Below are positions 7,841 through 64,000 of a stretch of 64,000 nucleotides of DNA, in pieces (within the stretch, counting starts at the first letter, position 1; every line of letters begins with the position of its first letter). The translations under genes were made by a program, and so were the position numbers. Location of the stretch: NCBI RefSeq assembly GCF_000731095.1, contig NZ_JMTZ01000010.1, positions 62,001 through 126,000 of the forward strand, read 5' to 3'. The notes beneath the pieces were generated by a model that made no database searches, was not told where the DNA came from, and worked only from the letters and a program-made list of their open reading frames with translations. Source of the DNA: Lysobacter antibioticus. Lineage in GTDB: Bacteria > Pseudomonadota > Gammaproteobacteria > Xanthomonadales > Xanthomonadaceae.

Positions 7841-8773
7841 CTAGTGTCCCGGTTTCAGCAATGATCCGATTGCCTCGTGCACGACAGGCCACGCCGGCGA
7901 GGCTGGATCGGCGATCTCGAAATGGCCGAGCGATGGCAACACTTCTAGCCTTACGGAATCGCCGGCCTTACGCGCTGCGTCTGCGTAAGCCTCGCCCAGC
8001 CAAACAGGCGTCATCTCGTCCCGTTGACCCCAGATCAGAATCTGCCGTTTCGCTAGCGGAAGCATCCTCATGGCGGATGTCTGCGCATAGCGTTCGGGTG
8101 CAGCGGCAGGTTCGCCTCCAAGCAGGGTCTTGACGATGTTCGGGTCGCGGCAAGCGGTCATTTGCACCGGGATGAACGCCTCCAGGTCGCCGGCACCTGC
8201 GAGATCGACTACGCCACTGATCGGCAGTGGATCCGCAACATGCAGTTGACTCTTGGCCGGAAGGCGGGAGCGAGCCGCCACCCACATCGCCAGGTGTCCG
8301 CCGGCCGAGTGTCCCAGCACGACCACGCGGTCGAGATCGAGCCGGTACTTCTGCGCGATCACTCGAAGGTGATCCGTTGCCCGTCCGACATCTGCATAGG
8401 TTCCCGGCCAGCCGCTGCCCGGTTGGGGAATGCGGCGGTATTCAATGTTCCAGCTAGCGATGCCGTCGGCTTTCAGCGCATCGGCCATGGGCGCCAGGCC
8501 GCGCAGCGTGGCGTAGTCCGCTTTCCAGCAGCCGCCATGGATCAGGATCACCACGGGATGCGGCCCCGCCGTGGAAGGAACGCTCAAATCGGCGTATTGA
8601 TTCGGGTCATCGCCATAGGCGATGCGATGGTCCGCCGGTCGACTGGGCAAGGACCGGAACTCGGCGGGCCCCATCAGCTCGTCGGCACTCTGCGACGCTA
8701 TGCGAGGCGGCGGCATCGCCGTACATGCCGCAAGAATCGCCAGAGTCAAAACGCCGGGTGACTGTCGAAGCAT
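7841..8773 (-). CDS. Alpha/beta hydrolase lipoprotein (BD-FAE/esterase type)
   Basis: The product is 310 residues. It begins with a lipoprotein signal ('GVLTLAILAACTA', lipidated Cys17). The alpha/beta hydrolase core has 'VVILIHGGCW' (HGG oxyanion motif), Ser156 in 'LGHSAGGHLAMW', Asp252 in 'WGQRDEMTP' and His284 in 'SLGHFEI'. The HGG plus GHSAGG combination is typical of carboxylesterases, kynurenine-formamidase-like enzymes and feruloyl-esterase-like enzymes. It is probably anchored in the envelope and acts on a small ester or amide. The substrate is unknown. The SnoaL-like gene follows it. Confidence 0.87.
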   Translation of the reverse strand: MLRQSPGVLTLAILAACTAMPPPRIASQSADELMGPAEFRSLPSRPADHRIAYGDDPNQYADLSVPSTAGPHPVVILIHGGCWKADYATLRGLAPMADALKADGIASWNIEYRRIPQPGSGWPGTYADVGRATDHLRVIAQKYRLDLDRVVVLGHSAGGHLAMWVAARSRLPAKSQLHVADPLPISGVVDLAGAGDLEAFIPVQMTACRDPNIVKTLLGGEPAAAPERYAQTSAMRMLPLAKRQILIWGQRDEMTPVWLGEAYADAARKAGDSVRLEVLPSLGHFEIADPASPAWPVVHEAIGSLLKPGH

Positions 8774-9533
8774 TGGAGTGGTTCCCCATGCTGCTTAACA
8801 ACCTGATAGACGGCCCCTTGGGTATCGGCGCACCCACCGGCTGGAGTGTAACTCCTGACCCTGCTCGCGCCCTACAACCCGGCCCTGGTCAACAAGCCGG
8901 CGCATGGCCGGGCCGGACACATCTGCACAGGCGGGTGACCGAATAAGCGCAACCGGTGGCTCGGCCATCCTCTCCGTTCTGTCCGCTTTCGGCCGGCAGC
9001 GGACATCGCTCTTTTCGATGGGTCGCCCCTGCCAAGCTTCGATGCCTCGGCGAAGAGGCTGGGCCGAGGCCCTGGCCTACGGCCCCGGACCATCCGAACC
9101 TGGCCGACTCGAACCGGGTCGGCCGGGCGCACTCGACCCGGCCGGTTGGAACTTGGAGGCGAGCCTATGAGGAAACGAACGGCCGCCTGCTCCGCCCGGC
9201 CAGGTTCGACGACCGCATCCGGACGGTCGTGCGTCCACGACCCACGCGCATGCACCCACATGAGCGGCCGACGTAAAAGTCCACGGTCTACGGCGGCGAG
9301 GCGCAGGAAACGGACTCCTGCGGTAGGTGATCGCCGGCGGTGCCTCGCCAGAACCGCGCCCCGGAAGGGCGATGGGCAAGTGTGTACCATTGCGTACCCT
9401 CGTCGAGGCGCATAAGGCCGGGCGCCGGATCGGGGCGATGTAAGCATGTTCCCGCCTGTTCGCCGCAAGCGCGCGCTGCCGTCTCGCCGTGCGGTCGCGA
9501 CTCGACCAAAACCGATCTTTCGATGCGCCGATC
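8774..9533. other. Long intergenic region upstream of the AraC-type regulator
   Basis: About 760 bp separating two divergent genes. Long frames on both strands are Arg/Pro-rich and look like GC-driven shadows. Direct and inverted GGCCGGG/CCCGGCC-type runs occur near 9065-9150. No tRNA, terminator or clear operator was recognised. Promoters of both flanking genes must lie here. Confidence 0.5.
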
Positions 9534-54000: not shown

Positions 54001-56272
<2,272 letters not shown>

Positions 56273-56292
56273 GTCGGGCGATTACCTGTGAA

Positions 56293-57153
56293 TCAATGTC
56301 GGCGATGCGAACGCGCGAGCGCGTCGCCGTGACGTGCCTCGAGCCAGATCTTGAACACCAGCGTGACCAGGGCCAGGCCGGCGAGCAGCGAGGCGACGGC
56401 GAACGCGGCCGCGGCTTCGCCGCCGAGTTGTTTGTACAACACCTCGACGTGCAGCGAGAGCGTGTTGGTCTTGCCCATGATGTTGCCCGACACCACCGTG
56501 ACCGCGCCGAATTCGCCCATCGCGCGCGCGCTGCACAACAGCACGCCGTACAACAGGCCCCACTTGATGTTCGGCAGGGTCACGCGGAAGAACATGGTCC
56601 AGGCACTGGCGCCGAGCGAGCGGGCGGCGAGTTCTTCGTCGCTGCCCTGTTGCTCCATCAGCGGGATCAGTTCGCGCACCACGAACGGGAAGGTCACGAA
56701 CATGGTCGCCAGGACGATGCCGGGCGTGGCGAACAGGATCTTGATGTCGTACTGGTTGAGCAGGTCGGCGAAGTAGCCGTGGGTGGGGCTGAACAACAGC
56801 ACCAGGCACAGGCCGGCGACCACCGGCGACACCGCGAACGGCAGGTCGATCAAGGCCAGCAGGGTGCGCTTGCCGCGGAATTCGAAACGGGTCAGCGCCC
56901 AGGCCATGAACACGCCGCAGATCGCGTTGACCGGCACCACCACCGCCGCGGTCAGCAGGGTCAGGCGCAGCGCCGACAAGGTGTGCGGCTCGGTCACCGC
57001 GGCGATCCAGACCTTGAGGCCGCTGCCGAACGCGGCGCCGAGCAGCATCAGCAGCGGCAGCACCAGCACCAGGGCCATGATCGCCACGGCGAGCGTGATC
57101 AGAGTCCAGCGGACCCAGGCCGGTTCCTGCAATTGGTCGCGCGCGTCAGCCAT
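56293..57153 (-). CDS. cysW: Sulfate ABC transporter permease CysW
   Basis: The product is 286 residues with about six helices ('LITLAVAIMALVLVLPLLML', 'LTLLTAAVVVPVNAICGVFM'). The BPD permease loop 'EELAARSLGASAWTMFFRVT' with 'LPNIKWGLLYGVLLCSARAM' contacts the ATPase, and 'GEFGAVTVVSGNIMGKTNTL' is characteristic of CysW. Overlaps cysT by 8 bp. Confidence 0.95.
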   Translation of the reverse strand: MADARDQLQEPAWVRWTLITLAVAIMALVLVLPLLMLLGAAFGSGLKVWIAAVTEPHTLSALRLTLLTAAVVVPVNAICGVFMAWALTRFEFRGKRTLLALIDLPFAVSPVVAGLCLVLLFSPTHGYFADLLNQYDIKILFATPGIVLATMFVTFPFVVRELIPLMEQQGSDEELAARSLGASAWTMFFRVTLPNIKWGLLYGVLLCSARAMGEFGAVTVVSGNIMGKTNTLSLHVEVLYKQLGGEAAAAFAVASLLAGLALVTLVFKIWLEARHGDALARSHRRH

Positions 57154-58012
57154 CGCGGCGGCTCCCGTGAGCGAACAGGGCCGAGGCGGCGTTGATCGCG
57201 ACCAGGCAGGCGAAGGACATCAGCAACAGCAGGGTGGCCAGTACGATTGCCGCGGTCACGCCGCCTTCTTCTTCCAGGCGGATGGTGATCAGCAAGGGCG
57301 CGATCTCGGTCTTCATCGGCAGGTTGCCGGCGATGAAGATCACCGAGCCGAACTCGCCCAGGCCGCGCGCGAACGCCAGCGAGAAACCGGTCAGCAGCGC
57401 CGGCAGCAGCTCGGGCAGGATCACCCGCCGCAAGGTGGTCAGGCGCGAGGCGCCGAGCGAGGCGGCGGCCTCTTCCTGCTCGCGGCCCAGCGCTTCGAGC
57501 ACCGGCTGCACCGTGCGCACCGCGAACGGCAGGCCGATGAAGATCAGGGCGATGACGATGCCGGTGGTGTTGTTGACCAGCTTGATGCCGAGCGGCTGCA
57601 GCAACTGGCCGACCCAGCCGTTCTCGTCGTAGATCGCCGCCAGGGTGATACCGGCGACCGCGGTCGGCAAGGCGAACGGCAGGTCGACCAGGGCGTCGAG
57701 CAGGCGCCGGCCGCTGAAACGGTAGCGTTCGAGCACCCAGGCGATCAGAGCGCCGCCGAGCAGCGAGCACACTGCGGCGATGAAGGCGGTGGCGAAACTG
57801 ACCTTGAGCGAGGCGATCACCCGCGGATCGCCGATCGCGCGCAGCCACCCGGCCAGCCCCAATCCGCCCGAACGCAGGATCAGCGCCGCCAGCGGCAACA
57901 GCACGACCAGGCCGAGCCAGGTCAGGCCCAAGCCCAGGCCGAGCCCGAAACCGGGCAACGGCCGGCGCCAGCGAACGGCGGAGGTCGGTAGGGGCAGGGC
58001 GTGCTCGCTCAT
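57146..58012 (-). CDS. cysT: Sulfate ABC transporter permease CysT
   Basis: The product is 288 residues with six helices, including 'GLGLGLTWLGLVVLLPLAAL' and 'VSFATAFIAAVCSLLGGALI'. 'DLPFALPTAVAGITLAAIYD', the permease loop 'EAAASLGASRLTTLRRVILP' and 'GEFGSVIFIAGNLPMKTEIA' identify CysT/CysU. It is the first gene of the operon. The sulfate-binding protein gene (sbp/cysP) that often precedes it is absent; the NRPS end lies 234 bp upstream instead. Confidence 0.95.
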   Translation of the reverse strand: MSEHALPLPTSAVRWRRPLPGFGLGLGLGLTWLGLVVLLPLAALILRSGGLGLAGWLRAIGDPRVIASLKVSFATAFIAAVCSLLGGALIAWVLERYRFSGRRLLDALVDLPFALPTAVAGITLAAIYDENGWVGQLLQPLGIKLVNNTTGIVIALIFIGLPFAVRTVQPVLEALGREQEEAAASLGASRLTTLRRVILPELLPALLTGFSLAFARGLGEFGSVIFIAGNLPMKTEIAPLLITIRLEEEGGVTAAIVLATLLLLMSFACLVAINAASALFAHGSRRDG

Positions 58013-58246: not shown

Positions 58247-61200
58247 TCAGCCCCAGTCGATGACGCCGCCGCGGCTGCGGCCCAGCAGGCCGTGGCCCCG
58301 GTCGATGGCGTGGACGATGGCGGCCACCTGCGCCGGCTGCCGGCTGACGAAATAATGCCCGCCGTCGGCCAGGACGATGGCGTGGACCCGCTCCGAGCAG
58401 GCCCGCCAACGCCGGTACTTGCGGCGATGGCCGCGGGTCAGCGGGTCGTCCTCGCTGTTGATGTTGAACAGCGGGGCCTGGATCCGCGGCGGCGGCCGGC
58501 CTTTGAGGTGGGCCGCGGCCAGGCGGGCGTCCTGGCGAAAGCCGGCGCTGAGGCGTTGCAGCGCGTCCTCGTGCAGGCCCTCGATCGACCCGCCCCAGGC
58601 CCGGATCAGTTCGCGCAGGTGTGCATCGCTGGTGGACTTCCAGGGATCGCGCCCGAGCAGCCATCGCGACAGCCTCGACAGCGGCAGCACCCCGCCGACG
58701 CAGACGAACTTCAGCGGCCGCCCGGCCGCTTCCAGGCGGCGGGCGATCTCCAGCGCCAGCACGCTGCCGACGCAGTGGCCGTACAGGCCGATCTTGCCGT
58801 CGGTCTTCGCCAGCAGGCGTTCGACGCAGAGCGCGGCCAGCGCATCGAGGTCGCGCAGTCCGGCCCCGGCCTCGTCGGCATCGCGGCCCGGCATCGCCAC
58901 CGCATACACGCTGATGCGCGGGTCCAATGCGGCCAGGTGCTCGGCGAGCGGTCGGAACATCGTCGCCGAGGCGCCGGCATAGGGCACGCACAGCAGCGTC
59001 AGTTCGCTGCGGGCGCGGCTCGCCAACAACTGCGGCACCGGGTCGTAGCCCGCGGCCTGTCCGGCTTGCAGCGACTGCGCCAGCGCCGCGATCGTCGGCT
59101 GCGCATAGAAGGCCAGCAACGACAGCGACTGGCCGTCGAAGGCCTCGGCGACGCGCGCGACCAGGTTGATCGCCTTGAGCGAATGGCCGCCGAGTTCGAA
59201 GAAGTGATCGTGGCGGCCGACCCGGTCGAGCTTGAGCAGTTCGCACCAGATGCCGGCGAGCGTGGTCTCGACTTCGCCGCGCGGCGCTTCGTAGCGGCGG
59301 GTCGCGACCGCATCCAGGTCCGGGGCCGGCAAGGCCTTGCGGTCGAGCTTGCCGTTGGCGGTCAGCGGCCACTGCGGCAGGTGCACATAGGCCGCCGGCA
59401 GCATGTGCTCGGGCAAGCGCGCCTGCAGCCGCGCGCGCAAGGTTTCGGCTGGCAGCGACGGGCCGGTGTAATAGGCGATCAGGCGTTTCTCGGCGGGACC
59501 ATCGACAGCAGGACCGTCCTCAACGAGCGCGCCGGGGCCGTCGTCGCGCGCGACGACCAGCGCCTGCTCGATGCCGGCGACTTGCTGCAAGGTCGCCTCG
59601 ATCTCGCCCAGCTCGATGCGGAAGCCGCGGATCTTGACCTGATCGTCGTTGCGGCCGAGGTATTCGAGGCTGCCGTCGGGCAACCAGCGGCCCAGGTCGC
59701 CGGTCTTGTACATGCGCGCGTGCGCCGCCTGCGGCCAAAACGGATCGTCGAGAAAACGTTCCGCGGTCAGCGCCGGGCGATGCAGATAACCGCGCGCGAC
59801 GCCGGCGCCGGCCACGTAGAGCTCGCCGATCGCGCCGATCGGCAGCGGTTGGCGCTGCGCGTCGAGCACGTAGACGCGCAGGTCGGCGAGGGCGCGCCCG
59901 ATCGGGCTGGCGCCGGTGCGCTCGGCGTCGGCCGCGCTCAGGGCGCGATAGGTCACGTGCACCGTGGTCTCGGTGATGCCGTACATGTTGACCAACTGGG
60001 TGCGTGCGTTGTCGGCGCGCCGGTACCAGGGGGCGAGCAGGTTCGTCTGCAGCGCTTCGCCGCCGAAGATCACCACCCGCAAGCGGTGCTGGCTGCGGCT
60101 CTGCGCGGCGATCAGGTGACGGAACGCGGTCGGGGTCTGGTTGAGCACGGTCACGCCTTCGCGGCACAGCAATTCGTAGAACTCTTGCGGCGAACGGCTG
60201 GTCGCTCGCGACACCAGCAGCAGTCGCCCGCCGTGCAGCAAGGCGCCCCACAGCTCCCAGACCGAGAAATCGAAGGCGAAGGAATGGAACAGCACGCCGA
60301 CGTCGTCGGCGCCGAACCGGAACTGCGCCGCGGTCGCGGCGAACAGGCGCGCGACCTGGCGGTGTTCGACCATCACGCCCTTGGCTTGTCCGGTCGAACC
60401 CGAGGTGTAGATCACGTAGGCCAGATGTCGGGGCCCGAGCGCGGGCAACTGCGGGTCGTGCGTCGGCAGGTCGGCGAAGGCCTCGGCGCTCAGTTCGAGC
60501 AGCGGTACCGAGGTCGCGCCCAGCGTCTCGTGCATCTGCGACGACGCCAGCACCGCCACCGGCGCGCTGTCGTCGAGCAGATAGCGCAGTCGTTCGGCCG
60601 GATAGGCCGGGTCCAAGGGCACATAGCCGGCGCCGGCCTTGAGGATGCCGAGCACGCCGATCACCAACTCCGGCCCGCGCTCGGCGCACAGGCCGACGCG
60701 GTCGTCGGGCGCGATGCCGAGTGCGAGCAGGCGATGGGCGACCCGGTTGGCGCGGGCGTTGAGCTCGGCGTAGGTCAGCGCGGCGCCTTCGTAGCTCAGC
60801 GCGACCGCGTCCGGGCTGCGCGCGGCCTGCGCCTCGAAACGGCGATGCAGGCAGTCGTCTTCAGCGGCGTCCATCTGCGGCGTGTTGAAGCCGACCAGGA
60901 CTTGCTCGCGCTGCGGCGGCGGCAAGACTTCGAGACCGAGCACGGGCGTGTGCGGCGCGTGTTCGAGCGCGTCGACCAGGGATTCGAGCGACTGGCGCAG
61001 GCAGGCGCAAACGCGCGCGGCATCGATGCCGGCACAGGTGCGCACGCCGAGGGCAAAGCCCGTACCCAGGTCGTCGACCGCCACGGTCAGCGGATAGTGG
61101 GTGCGTTCGCCCGCGGCCGAGTCCAGGGCCTCGATGCCGGGCCAGGCGGCGTCGGCGGTCGGCGCGCTGTGGCGGTAGTTGAGCAGGCTGTTGAACAGCG

Positions 61201-64000
61201 GCCGCGGCGCGGCGACGCCGCTGCAGGCCTGCGCCAGCACCAGCGGCGCGTGTTCGTGTTCCAACAACGCGGCGAGGCTTGCGTGGGTGGCCTGCACCGC
61301 TGCACGGACGTCTGCGGTCAGTGCGACGCGCAAAGGCAAAGTGTTGATGAACATGCCCAGGGCGCGATCGGAGTGCGCGGCGCCGTGCAAACGGCCGAAC
61401 AGCACCGTGCCGAACACCACGTCGTCGCGTCCGCTCAACCGTCCCAACACCTGCGCCCAGGCCAGGTGCAGCAGACTCGCCACGCTGACCCCGAGTTGCC
61501 GCGCCTGGACGCGCAGGCGCTGATCGAGTTCTCTGCCTAGTTCCTCGTGGGCTTCGTCGTCGCCTGTGGCTGCGTCGTGCGCGCCGGGTTTGTCGTGGCT
61601 CTTGGCCGGCGATCCGTCGACGCCGAACGCGAGGGTCGGCTCGTCGACATCGCCGAGCAGGTCGCGGAAGAAGGCTGCGTGCGCGGCCTGGCCTTGCGCG
61701 AGGGTCGCCTGCACCACGTAATCGCGGTACGGCACCGGCGCGGGCAGGCTCGCCATCTCGCCGTGCAGGAAAGCCTGCATCTCGCGTTGCACCACCTCGA
61801 GCGCGGTGTGGTCCAGGGCCATGTGATGAAACTGCAGCGCACCGACCCAACGGCCGTCGGCGCCGTCGTGTGCGCAACTCAAGCGCAGCAGCGGCGCGCG
61901 ACGCACGTCGAGCCGACGCGTACGCGGATCGACCTGGGCTTGCAACTGCGCGGCGACAGCGCCGGCCCTCGGGTCCAGGGCGATCTCCTCGATCGGCAGC
62001 TGCGCGCGTCGCCACACCACCTGCACCGGTTCGGCCAGGCCCTCCCAGGCCATCGCGGTCCTGAGGATGTCGTGGCGGTCGATCACCGCCTGCAAAGCGT
62101 CGCGGAACGCGTCGAGGCGGGCGCGGCTGTCGAAGCGGAACAGCGCTTGCAGCAGATAAGGGTCGCCGGCCTGGGCGGTGCGGTGGTGGTACAGCAGCCC
62201 CTCCTGCAAGGGCGCGAGCGGGTAGATGTCCTGGACGTTGCGGATGCCGCCGGGCACTTCGGCGATCAAACGGTCGATCGCAGCCTGGCTCAGATTCGCC
62301 AGCGGCAGCATCGACGGCGTGATCGCGGTGCTATCGGCGGGGATCGCGTACGTGGGCACCTCGGGCTGCGCGCGATGTTCGATTGCCGCGGTTTCCACCG
62401 AGGCGGCGAAGGCGGCCAGGGTCGGCTGAGCGAACAGCAGGCGCACGCGCGCGATCAGCCCGGCCTGGCGCATGCGTTCGATCAAGCGCACCGCCAACAG
62501 CGAGTGCCCGCCGAGCTCGAAGAAGTGATCGTGGCGGCCGACCCGCGGCAGGCTCAGCAATTCCTGCCACAGCGCCGCGATGGTTCGTTCGACCTCGCCG
62601 CGCGGCGCTGCGTAGTGTTCGGTCGCGGCCGCATCGAGCCCGGGCGCCGGCAAGGCGCGGTGGTCGAGCTTGCCGTTCGGTGTCAGCGGCCAGCGTTCGA
62701 GGACGACGAAGGCCGCCGGCAGCATGTGCTCGGGCAGGCGTAACGCGAGCCGGCGCCGCAGCGCCGCGGTGTCGGCGTTCGCAGCGACGAGATAAGCGAC
62801 CAGGCGCGGCTGATCGTGCGGGCCTTCGCGTGCGACGACGGTGTTGTGCGGGAAACCGGCCTCGGCCAGTGCGGCCTCGATCTCGCCGGGTTCGATGCGG
62901 AAGCCGCGCAGCTTGAGCTGGCGGTCGGCGCGGCCGAGGAACTCGAGCTGGCCGTCGCGCCGCCACCGCGCCAGATCGCCGGAGCGGTACATGCGTTCGC
63001 CGGGCGCATCGGGGTCGGCGACGAAGCGCTCGGCGCTCAGGCCGGGGCGATCGAGGTATCCGCGCGCCAGCCCCGGGCCGCCGATGTAGAGCTCGCCGGG
63101 CACGCCGACCGGCACCGCACGCAGGCGCGTATCCAACACATGCAAGCGGCTGCCGCGCACCGCGTGCCCGATCGGCAAGCGGTGCTGCGACGCCACCACG
63201 TCGCTCGCCAGTGGCGCGGTCAAGCTCGTGCAGATCGTGGTCTCGGTCGGGCCGTAGGCATTGATCAAACCGCGGCCTTGCGCCCAGGCATGGGCCAGCG
63301 CGGGTGCACAGGCATCGCCGCCGACGATCAGGCGACGGCAGTCCGGCAGGTCGTCCGGGTTCAACAGCGACAACACCGCCGGCGGCAGCAGCGCATGGGT
63401 GATGCGATGCGCGCGCATCGTTGCGGCCAGGGCCGGGCCGGGCAGCAGGCGCTCGGACTCGGCCATCACCAGTGCGGCGCCGGACAACAGCGCCATGCAC
63501 AGCTCCCAGAACGCGGCATCGAAACTCAGCGAGGCGAACTGCAGCACGCGCGCATCGGCGCCGATGGCGAGCGGTTCGACACCGCTTTCGATCAGGTTGG
63601 CGATGCCGGCGTGAGCGACGACCACGCCCTTGGGCCGGCCGCTGGAGCCGGAGGTGTAGATGACATAGGCCGGGTGCTGCACCCGCAGCGCGCTCGTGCG
63701 TTCGCGATCGCTCGGGTTGTGCAGCGGGCTGTCGTCGATCGCGGCGAGGTTGGCCTCGTCGTCGAGGCCGAACCAGACCGCGTCGGCCAGTGCCGGCAAG
63801 CGGGCGCGGCCGGCGCGATCGCCGATGCTCAGGCGCGGGCTGGCGTCGTCGAGCATGTAAGCGAGGCGATCGAGCGGATACTCCGGGTCCAGCGGCACGA
63901 AAGCGGCGCCGGCCTTGAGCACGCCGAGCACCGCGACGATGGCGTGCGGCGAGCGCGGCAACACCAGCGCGACCCGGTCTTCCGGGCCGATGCCTCGGCC
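58247..64000 (-). CDS. Non-ribosomal peptide synthetase, C-terminal part (A-T-C-A-T-TE), N-terminus outside window
   Basis: About 1,917 visible residues, numbered from the window edge. First A domain (1 to ~450): specificity residues read D-A-W-L-I-G-A-I-C, close to gramicidin's Phe pocket but with Leu at 278 and Gly at 301. Carrier domain Ser500 ('FFELGGHSLLAVRL'). Condensation domain (~560-1030) with 'IYPLAPLQEGLLYHHRTAQA', then GD, and 'FHHMALDHTA' (catalytic His726), the dual condensation/epimerisation pattern. Second A domain (~1050-1555) has D-F-W-N-I-G-M-V-H, the canonical Thr code. Carrier Ser1607 ('FFELGGHSLKAINL'). Thioesterase (~1665-1917) resembles type II enzymes ('LLCVPYAGASATMFRPLAEH') and has 'YGHCVGSVLAL' with Cys1743 where Ser is usual, and His1882. 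It ends an assembly line, predicted ...-D-(Leu-like)-Thr. Confidence 0.95.
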   Translation of the reverse strand, partial: GRGIGPEDRVALVLPRSPHAIVAVLGVLKAGAAFVPLDPEYPLDRLAYMLDDASPRLSIGDRAGRARLPALADAVWFGLDDEANLAAIDDSPLHNPSDRERTSALRVQHPAYVIYTSGSSGRPKGVVVAHAGIANLIESGVEPLAIGADARVLQFASLSFDAAFWELCMALLSGAALVMAESERLLPGPALAATMRAHRITHALLPPAVLSLLNPDDLPDCRRLIVGGDACAPALAHAWAQGRGLINAYGPTETTICTSLTAPLASDVVASQHRLPIGHAVRGSRLHVLDTRLRAVPVGVPGELYIGGPGLARGYLDRPGLSAERFVADPDAPGERMYRSGDLARWRRDGQLEFLGRADRQLKLRGFRIEPGEIEAALAEAGFPHNTVVAREGPHDQPRLVAYLVAANADTAALRRRLALRLPEHMLPAAFVVLERWPLTPNGKLDHRALPAPGLDAAATEHYAAPRGEVERTIAALWQELLSLPRVGRHDHFFELGGHSLLAVRLIERMRQAGLIARVRLLFAQPTLAAFAASVETAAIEHRAQPEVPTYAIPADSTAITPSMLPLANLSQAAIDRLIAEVPGGIRNVQDIYPLAPLQEGLLYHHRTAQAGDPYLLQALFRFDSRARLDAFRDALQAVIDRHDILRTAMAWEGLAEPVQVVWRRAQLPIEEIALDPRAGAVAAQLQAQVDPRTRRLDVRRAPLLRLSCAHDGADGRWVGALQFHHMALDHTALEVVQREMQAFLHGEMASLPAPVPYRDYVVQATLAQGQAAHAAFFRDLLGDVDEPTLAFGVDGSPAKSHDKPGAHDAATGDDEAHEELGRELDQRLRVQARQLGVSVASLLHLAWAQVLGRLSGRDDVVFGTVLFGRLHGAAHSDRALGMFINTLPLRVALTADVRAAVQATHASLAALLEHEHAPLVLAQACSGVAAPRPLFNSLLNYRHSAPTADAAWPGIEALDSAAGERTHYPLTVAVDDLGTGFALGVRTCAGIDAARVCACLRQSLESLVDALEHAPHTPVLGLEVLPPPQREQVLVGFNTPQMDAAEDDCLHRRFEAQAARSPDAVALSYEGAALTYAELNARANRVAHRLLALGIAPDDRVGLCAERGPELVIGVLGILKAGAGYVPLDPAYPAERLRYLLDDSAPVAVLASSQMHETLGATSVPLLELSAEAFADLPTHDPQLPALGPRHLAYVIYTSGSTGQAKGVMVEHRQVARLFAATAAQFRFGADDVGVLFHSFAFDFSVWELWGALLHGGRLLLVSRATSRSPQEFYELLCREGVTVLNQTPTAFRHLIAAQSRSQHRLRVVIFGGEALQTNLLAPWYRRADNARTQLVNMYGITETTVHVTYRALSAADAERTGASPIGRALADLRVYVLDAQRQPLPIGAIGELYVAGAGVARGYLHRPALTAERFLDDPFWPQAAHARMYKTGDLGRWLPDGSLEYLGRNDDQVKIRGFRIELGEIEATLQQVAGIEQALVVARDDGPGALVEDGPAVDGPAEKRLIAYYTGPSLPAETLRARLQARLPEHMLPAAYVHLPQWPLTANGKLDRKALPAPDLDAVATRRYEAPRGEVETTLAGIWCELLKLDRVGRHDHFFELGGHSLKAINLVARVAEAFDGQSLSLLAFYAQPTIAALAQSLQAGQAAGYDPVPQLLASRARSELTLLCVPYAGASATMFRPLAEHLAALDPRISVYAVAMPGRDADEAGAGLRDLDALAALCVERLLAKTDGKIGLYGHCVGSVLALEIARRLEAAGRPLKFVCVGGVLPLSRLSRWLLGRDPWKSTSDAHLRELIRAWGGSIEGLHEDALQRLSAGFRQDARLAAAHLKGRPPPRIQAPLFNINSEDDPLTRGHRRKYRRWRACSERVHAIVLADGGHYFVSRQPAQVAAIVHAIDRGHGLLGRSRGGVIDWG

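Follow-up and report, generated by a model that had tools for sequence, protein, structure and literature searches.

Thioesterases with a Cys nucleophile that close four-membered rings are already known from two systems, ObiF and SulM. In the obafluorin system the closure of the beta-lactone by the thioesterase (TE) has been demonstrated, and the catalytic triad of ObiF1 together with Gly1173 is important for making the ring, in that altering these residues lowers the product (PMC6668435, here and below in the part of its text that is available). The C1146S variant yields the hydroxy acid as its only product, R1190A brings an approximately tenfold loss and D1177A and R1263A bring none. The A domain of ObiF1 shuts out L-Thr and L-Ser, L-Thr being the simplest analog of the backbone stereochemistry of the obafluorin amino acid, and thiols trap obafluorin itself immediately (PMC6668435). 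The TE of SulM carries the motif Gln-Cys-Asn, and both this domain (SulTE) and ObiF1 cluster with type II TEs and have an Asp at position II (PMC11298585, likewise in its available part).

The nonribosomal peptide synthetase (NRPS) described here is encoded on the minus strand of a 64,000-nucleotide stretch of Lysobacter antibioticus DNA, which is referred to as the window. The 3' part of the gene (58247..64000, 1917 codons) has its stop at 58247, is still open beyond window position 64000 and continues past the window to the end of the contig. According to Pfam this part has the domain order A-PCP-C-A-PCP-TE, with all domains on the minus strand. The preceding module contributes an A domain with the code DAWLIGAICK (62670..64000, running beyond the window) and a PCP (62396..62593, approximate limits, from Pfam and motifs), and the last module consists of a C domain (61070..62236), an A domain whose core was located by Pfam and the code readout (59783..60838), a PCP with the motif LGGHSL (59075..59263, converted from residue numbers) and the terminal TE (58250..59029). 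The last C domain shows HHMALDH with HHRTAQAGD upstream, motifs that we take to mark the dual epimerisation/condensation type, and to judge from them the residue preceding Thr is probably D-configured. The last A domain reads DFWNIGMVHK, presumably the canonical threonine code, which upholds the threonine module that the original prediction had placed before the TE. In its complete form the enzyme probably comprises three or more modules and a first C domain, because one further module (code DAYWWGCTFK) is visible in the NRPS of a second genome of the same genus (G005) and the start region of the NRPS bears yet another C domain.

The terminal TE, recognised by Pfam, by alignment with ObiF1, by an AlphaFold model (mean pLDDT 86.8) and by Foldseek, is the single match to PF00975 (Thioesterase) in the 1917-residue open frame (residues 1668-1898, score 80.2 bits, cut-off 26.4) and is thus fused as the only TE, as had been proposed. 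The frame stops 19 residues past this match and has no MbtH-like domain behind the TE. GHCVG forms the nucleophile elbow, whose Cys (TE residue 86) is indeed encoded by a TGC codon at 58772..58774, to which the strand, absent from the original prediction, can be added as minus. In the alignment with ObiF1, whose numbering offset was set by Cys1146, the residues Cys1146, Gly1173, Asp1254 and His1284 of ObiF1 fall on C86, G113 (58691..58693), D195 (58445..58447) and H225 (58355..58357) of the window TE, the last being the triad His that had been claimed. D195 is the triad Asp at position II, and G113 occupies the place where EntF-like TEs have Asp. Arg1190 of ObiF1 is not kept in the window TE, which has Thr133 instead, and Asp1177 and Arg1263 are replaced by Ser and Lys, respectively.

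The Cys is neither a chance change nor a reading error, since it recurs in two further genomes and the domain bears the marks of selection. The ortholog in G005 is 93% identical over the TE and has the same GHCVG elbow and likewise a TGC codon, and the TE of Pseudomonas karstica has a Cys nucleophile in the elbow GHCAG. Comparison of the window and G005 TEs (pN 0.041, pS 0.154) shows a substitution pattern indicative of purifying selection. In a search of 100 genomes, made up of the own one and those of 99 relatives, G005 was the single genome other than the own to give a near match to the TE, the next best having an E value of 2.6e-19.

The best sequence match of the window TE in the PDB is ObiF1 (6n8e, E 1.1e-28), followed by BorB (4e-25), RifR (5e-16), surfactin TEII (1.6e-13) and then the SulM TE (4.6e-12). 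With the TE model as query, Foldseek places ObiF1 at rank 1 (TMq 0.81, 33% identity) and SulM TE chains at ranks 2-5 (TMq 0.78), with BorB, RedJ and RifR next. The suspected kinship with the Cys TEs of obafluorin and sulfazecin is borne out by these matches, and so is the type-II-like character of the domain, which has a RifR-like triad layout with the Asp at position II and has type II TEs among its matches by both sequence and fold. BorB, RifR and RedJ have the same fold and triad layout as the window TE but differ from it in their Ser nucleophile and in that the window TE is fused C-terminally rather than free-standing.

Like ObiF1, the window TE combines the GHC Cys nucleophile, the position II Asp and the His with the Gly that replaces the EntF-type Asp, and it is placed after a (2S,3R)-type beta-hydroxy amino acid. 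The two systems differ in the last A domain, which has a Thr code in the window and a code for beta-OH-p-NO2-homoPhe in ObiF, and in the product, the window NRPS making a multimodular peptide whereas obafluorin is a dihydroxybenzoyl amide. The window also differs in having no MbtH domain behind the TE, no Arg1190 and no second threonyl-tRNA synthetase (ThrRS) gene, and its TE lies on a separate, deeper branch of the tree described below. The ThrRS search gave one match each in the window genome, G005 and P. karstica, and two in Chitiniphilus. By analogy, this argues that the product would have no need for the obafluorin type of self-protection, and the single gene thus argues against the same target as that of obafluorin and not against the ring. 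Obafluorin proper was considered as the product and is ruled out by the missing MbtH domain and second ThrRS. With SulM the window NRPS shares the Cys nucleophile, the position II Asp and the position of the TE as terminal domain of a multimodular enzyme, and it differs in its His-Cys-Val in place of Gln-Cys-Asn and in its terminal Thr in place of diaminopropionate (Dap); no sulfotransferase gene is present among the six window neighbours scanned. A SulM-like monobactam is likewise ruled out, as the TE has no Gln-Cys-Asn and the last A domain no Dap code.

In a tree of 48 TE rows, a clade of 21 NRPS-fused rows (17 Cys and 4 Ser, with one place on G751 contig 9 entered twice as L093 and L106, so that 20 rows are distinct) is separated from 27 Ser TEs of the type II kind with a support of 100/100. 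The separation is still 100/100 when the nucleophile is masked, in a tree of 18 against 27 rows from which L083, L078 and, as the second copy of the repeated place, L106 were removed. A sporadic Cys within an ordinary group of Ser type II TEs, the outcome that had been named as refuting the original prediction, is therefore not what is seen. RifR is placed outside the fused clade (the tree does not include BorB and RedJ). Within the clade, the TEs of the window, G005 and P. karstica make up one branch (97/93) and the ObiF-type TEs another (100/98), and the SulM-like TE L083 (motif AQCNG) is included on a long branch with weaker support (95/68). The threonine branch leaves the clade first, in that it lies together with the 27 type II rows on one side of a 100/95 branch of the unrooted tree, and its deep position means that ObiF and SulM do not bracket the window TE. 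Forcing the ObiF and threonine branches into one clade lowers the log-likelihood by 5.4 units, a grouping that the tree does not show and that the AU test does not reject (p-AU 0.25). Transfer of function from ObiF and SulM to the threonine branch thus draws on the likeness of residues and on the A-domain rule set out below, and not on bracketing.

A-domain codes could be taken from all 19 clade loci with enough context, and in 19/19 the last A domain upstream of the TE has the code of a beta-nucleophile residue, compared with 3 of 15 readable controls. The threonine code is found at three loci (the window, G005 and P. karstica), and five loci have an obafluorin-type code, assigned because of their TE kinship and the architecture of the locus L008. 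Four have DVWHFSLVDK, which we take to be a serine-type code, five have DIWQST[AT]DDK, one has DVWEVTADDK and one, a SulM-like locus, has DVWELTADDK. The last three codes are read as Dap or a close residue. For DIWQST[AT]DDK and DVWEVTADDK this is because Dap biosynthesis genes adjoin at the loci tested, which were L009, L103, L104 and L108: SbnA and SbnB are above the cut-off at L104 and L108 and SbnA is above it at L103, and L009 has an SbnA-like gene nearby that is below the cut-off. For DVWELTADDK (L109) the assignment rests on the SulM-like motif of the TE.

The controls are 20 terminal-TE places from one order, chosen from the genome search list and mostly in long frames, of which two are broken (L112, L128) and three give no code (L126, L127, L129); at L116, L123 and L125 the TE was not seen in the same frame by motif search. 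The three serine codes among the controls are from orthologs of each other, and none of the other readable codes is recognisable as Thr, Ser or Dap-like. As the codes DSLVAAGVVK (L114) and DMKELGMVDK (L117, L120) are not assignable, the number of beta-nucleophile codes could in principle be as high as 6/15. Fisher's test gives p 8e-7 when loci are counted, although the loci are not independent, and p 3e-4 when the loci are grouped, by our own assignment, into 10 lineages and compared with the 8 control codes that are distinct. The control L118 has a terminal TE with GWCLGG behind a valine-like code, and Cys alone is therefore not diagnostic. The Cys TE of L118 resembles the window TE weakly and in part (G016, E 2.1e-4).

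We propose, and consider it fairly probable, that the peptide set free by the window TE ends in a beta-lactone formed from its C-terminal threonine. A peptide ending in D-Xaa-L-Thr would pass from the last PCP to Cys86 of the TE as a thioester, with Cys86 activated by His225 and the position II Asp195, and Gly113 would give the pantetheine arm the space that it needs. The hydroxyl on the side chain of L-Thr could then attack its own thioester (4-exo-trig) inside a closed pocket that is poor in water, by which the peptide would leave as the beta-lactone. The beta-lactone is favoured because ObiF1 is the best match of the window TE, because the triad and Gly1173 are kept, because the clade is separated at 100/100 with beta-nucleophile codes in 19/19 loci and because a threonine-coded A domain precedes a TE of the ObiF1 clade. 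Counting against it are the deepest branch position of the window TE, the type II TEs that rank ahead of SulM by sequence and the loss of Arg1190, as well as the non-diagnostic Cys (L118), the four Ser rows of the clade and the unassignable control codes. The original prediction had left the release chemistry open between beta-lactone formation, macrolactonisation and capture by an external nucleophile; all three had been allowed, and the A-domain codes of the clade now favour the first over the other two, without proving it.

The acyl-enzymes of TEs are often hydrolysed, and it is conceivable, if unlikely, that the window TE is a plain hydrolase in which water resolves the Cys acyl-enzyme and the free threonine acid leaves. 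The four Ser rows, which imply that an oxoester intermediate is acceptable in the clade, and the hydrolysis by ObiF1 C1146S (PMC6668435) are in line with this. However, the window TE keeps the Cys together with the Gly113/Asp195 arrangement, and a hydrolase needs no bias towards residues capable of four-membered rings, yet all 19 clade loci show such a bias. Macrolactone formation or oligomerisation, in which an upstream side chain or a second peptide chain would attack in the manner of EntF, is a common release mode and here distinctly unlikely. Serine-coded last modules do precede tandem Ser TEs in the controls L110, L111 and L124, presumably lysobactin-like macrolactone systems, but these tandem TEs match the window TE over part of their own length only, the window TE being nearest to ObiF1, and the two-module NRPS of P. 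karstica would be short for a macrolactone, though dimers are possible.

Thioester acyl-enzymes favour capture by amines and thiols, which would fit a release in which an amine, thiol or alcohol acts as an external nucleophile and either takes the acyl group over from the Cys or adds to a beta-lactone formed transiently. The trapping of obafluorin by thiols would fit it as well (PMC6668435). This route is nevertheless improbable, given that no partner gene is present among the six window neighbours scanned and that the 5' neighbour of the NRPS is apparently a sulfate-binding-protein gene (see below). It is highly improbable that the domain is an ordinary type II editing TE that has become fused, with the Cys as a sporadic and weakly active change. 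The triad layout of the RifR/RedJ kind would suit such an origin, as would the rank of BorB, RedJ and RifR after ObiF1 and SulM by fold and of BorB and RifR after ObiF1 by sequence, but the split from the 27 Ser TEs at 100/100 with and without the nucleophile and the Cys in three genomes of two genera, under apparent purifying selection, speak against it.

N-acyl threonine beta-lactones are not without precedent, since a Bacillus has yielded SQ 26,517, and beta-lactones acylate catalytic residues of enzymes. If the beta-lactone reading is correct, it would suggest that NRPSs can use a common amino acid to equip peptides several residues long with a beta-lactone warhead, and the determinants of a ring-closing TE would become testable in a system that has no unusual precursor pathway. 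A threonine-coded branch with a Cys TE of this clade was not found in the open-access literature searched (most subscription papers being outside the scope of the search), and neither was an NRPS for a threonine or serine beta-lactone, the available part of PMC12297239 included. More broadly, and with some reserve, the clade may be a general family for release by four-membered ring closure (threonine, serine and aryl beta-lactones and Dap beta-lactams) with the window as its peptidyl-threonine branch, and one upstream line may perhaps be finished in two ways. Two alternative finishes are suggested because the same genus has a giant NRPS pair whose second gene starts with a near-identical sequence to that of the window gene. 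The pairing of TE and residue provides a simple rule by which gene clusters for beta-lactones and beta-lactams can be sought, and it points to branches of the Ser, Thr and Dap-like kinds that are uncharacterised and occur in Pseudomonas, the order of Chitiniphilus and the Actinomycetota.

Clade members were found in at least 5/298 genomes from the P. karstica genus (6 places), at least 5/396 genomes of the phylum of Micromonospora (6 places), at least 3/399 genomes of the order of Chitiniphilus and at least 1/369 genomes of the class of the window, namely the own genome; these are lower bounds, as the profile searches scored up to 6-8 candidates per genome. Six further genomes of the P. karstica genus gave matches near 1e-31, of which five have Ser and the sixth (L083) is SulM-like. 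The NRPS of P. karstica itself (L007) has the order C-A-PCP-C-A-PCP-TE and shares with the window the TE branch, the threonine code and the dual-type last C domain. It differs in having only two modules, the first with DALWIGGTFK, which we take to be a valine-like code, and it is flanked by genes for an NtaA/DmoA-family FMN monooxygenase and a LysR regulator.

An actinobacterial subclade (L010, L089/L102, L090/L103, L091/L104) has a Ser TE with GHSSG or GHSAG after a DIWQST[AT]DDK module in 4/4 loci. In L099 and L100 from the P. karstica genus and L105 and L106 from the Micromonospora phylum, a Cys TE of the clade stands behind a serine-coded module, which makes these four loci candidate serine beta-lactone NRPSs. 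The neighbours of L099 include a KamA-like radical SAM gene (below the model cut-offs), an ATP-grasp-like gene and AzlC. L108, from the order of Chitiniphilus, has a GHCSG TE and the last code DVWEVTADDK, adjoins SbnA, SbnB and AzlC genes and is a candidate beta-lactam cluster with no SulM-type motif. L109, from the P. karstica genus, is a SulM-like NRPS with the TE motif AQCNG and the last code DVWELTADDK, and an adjoining gene at 8166-8960 is sulfotransferase-like by eye. L008 of Chitiniphilus eburneus is an obafluorin-type cluster with the architecture C-A-PCP-TE-MbtH-A, which also contains an SHMT-family gene, a class II DAHP synthase and a second ThrRS.

Directly 3' of the NRPS lies a cysT-like sulfate permease gene (57146..58012, minus strand), followed in the same operon by genes for a cysW-like permease and a cysA-like ATPase (55229..57153, minus strand). 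Next come the gene for ALA dehydratase and, further on, that for shikimate dehydrogenase; no tailoring gene is present among the six window neighbours scanned. The cysT-like gene is found in 20/20 genomes of the genus, own included, and is read as belonging to a host operon and not to the peptide pathway. Its 5' neighbour is a sulfate-binding-protein gene, named by eye, in all seven readable loci (L133, L135, L140-L144) of the 20 examined. In the window genome about 110 bases separate the end of this gene from that of contig C16. In G005 about 0.65-0.7 kb lie between the gene and the NRPS start (MRNAQIEDLLPLSPLQHG), behind which comes a run of 36 Ns. The NRPS therefore appears to have been inserted between the sulfate-binding-protein gene and cysTWA of the sulfate-uptake operon, a placement obtained by joining contigs through this operon, as the 5' part of the NRPS falls in an assembly gap. 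In G005 a ggt gene stands 5' of the NRPS, but the join is a 36-N run and this neighbourhood is dismissed as an artefact of scaffolding; in the own genome (G000) ggt is on contig C52, where the upstream frames are by eye unrelated to the NRPS.

Contig C10 of G000 breaks off within an A domain, and the matching NRPS repeats of G005 coincide with 36-N runs. In principle, the first enzyme of the giant NRPS pair could feed either the Cys-TE NRPS or the second gene of the pair. The N-terminal module parts of the Cys-TE NRPS resemble this second gene at 95-99% over stretches of 0.3-1.7 kb, and such near-identical stretches are found at L062, L064, L034 and L153 in G005 and on C3, C38 and C10 in G000, where both assemblies break.
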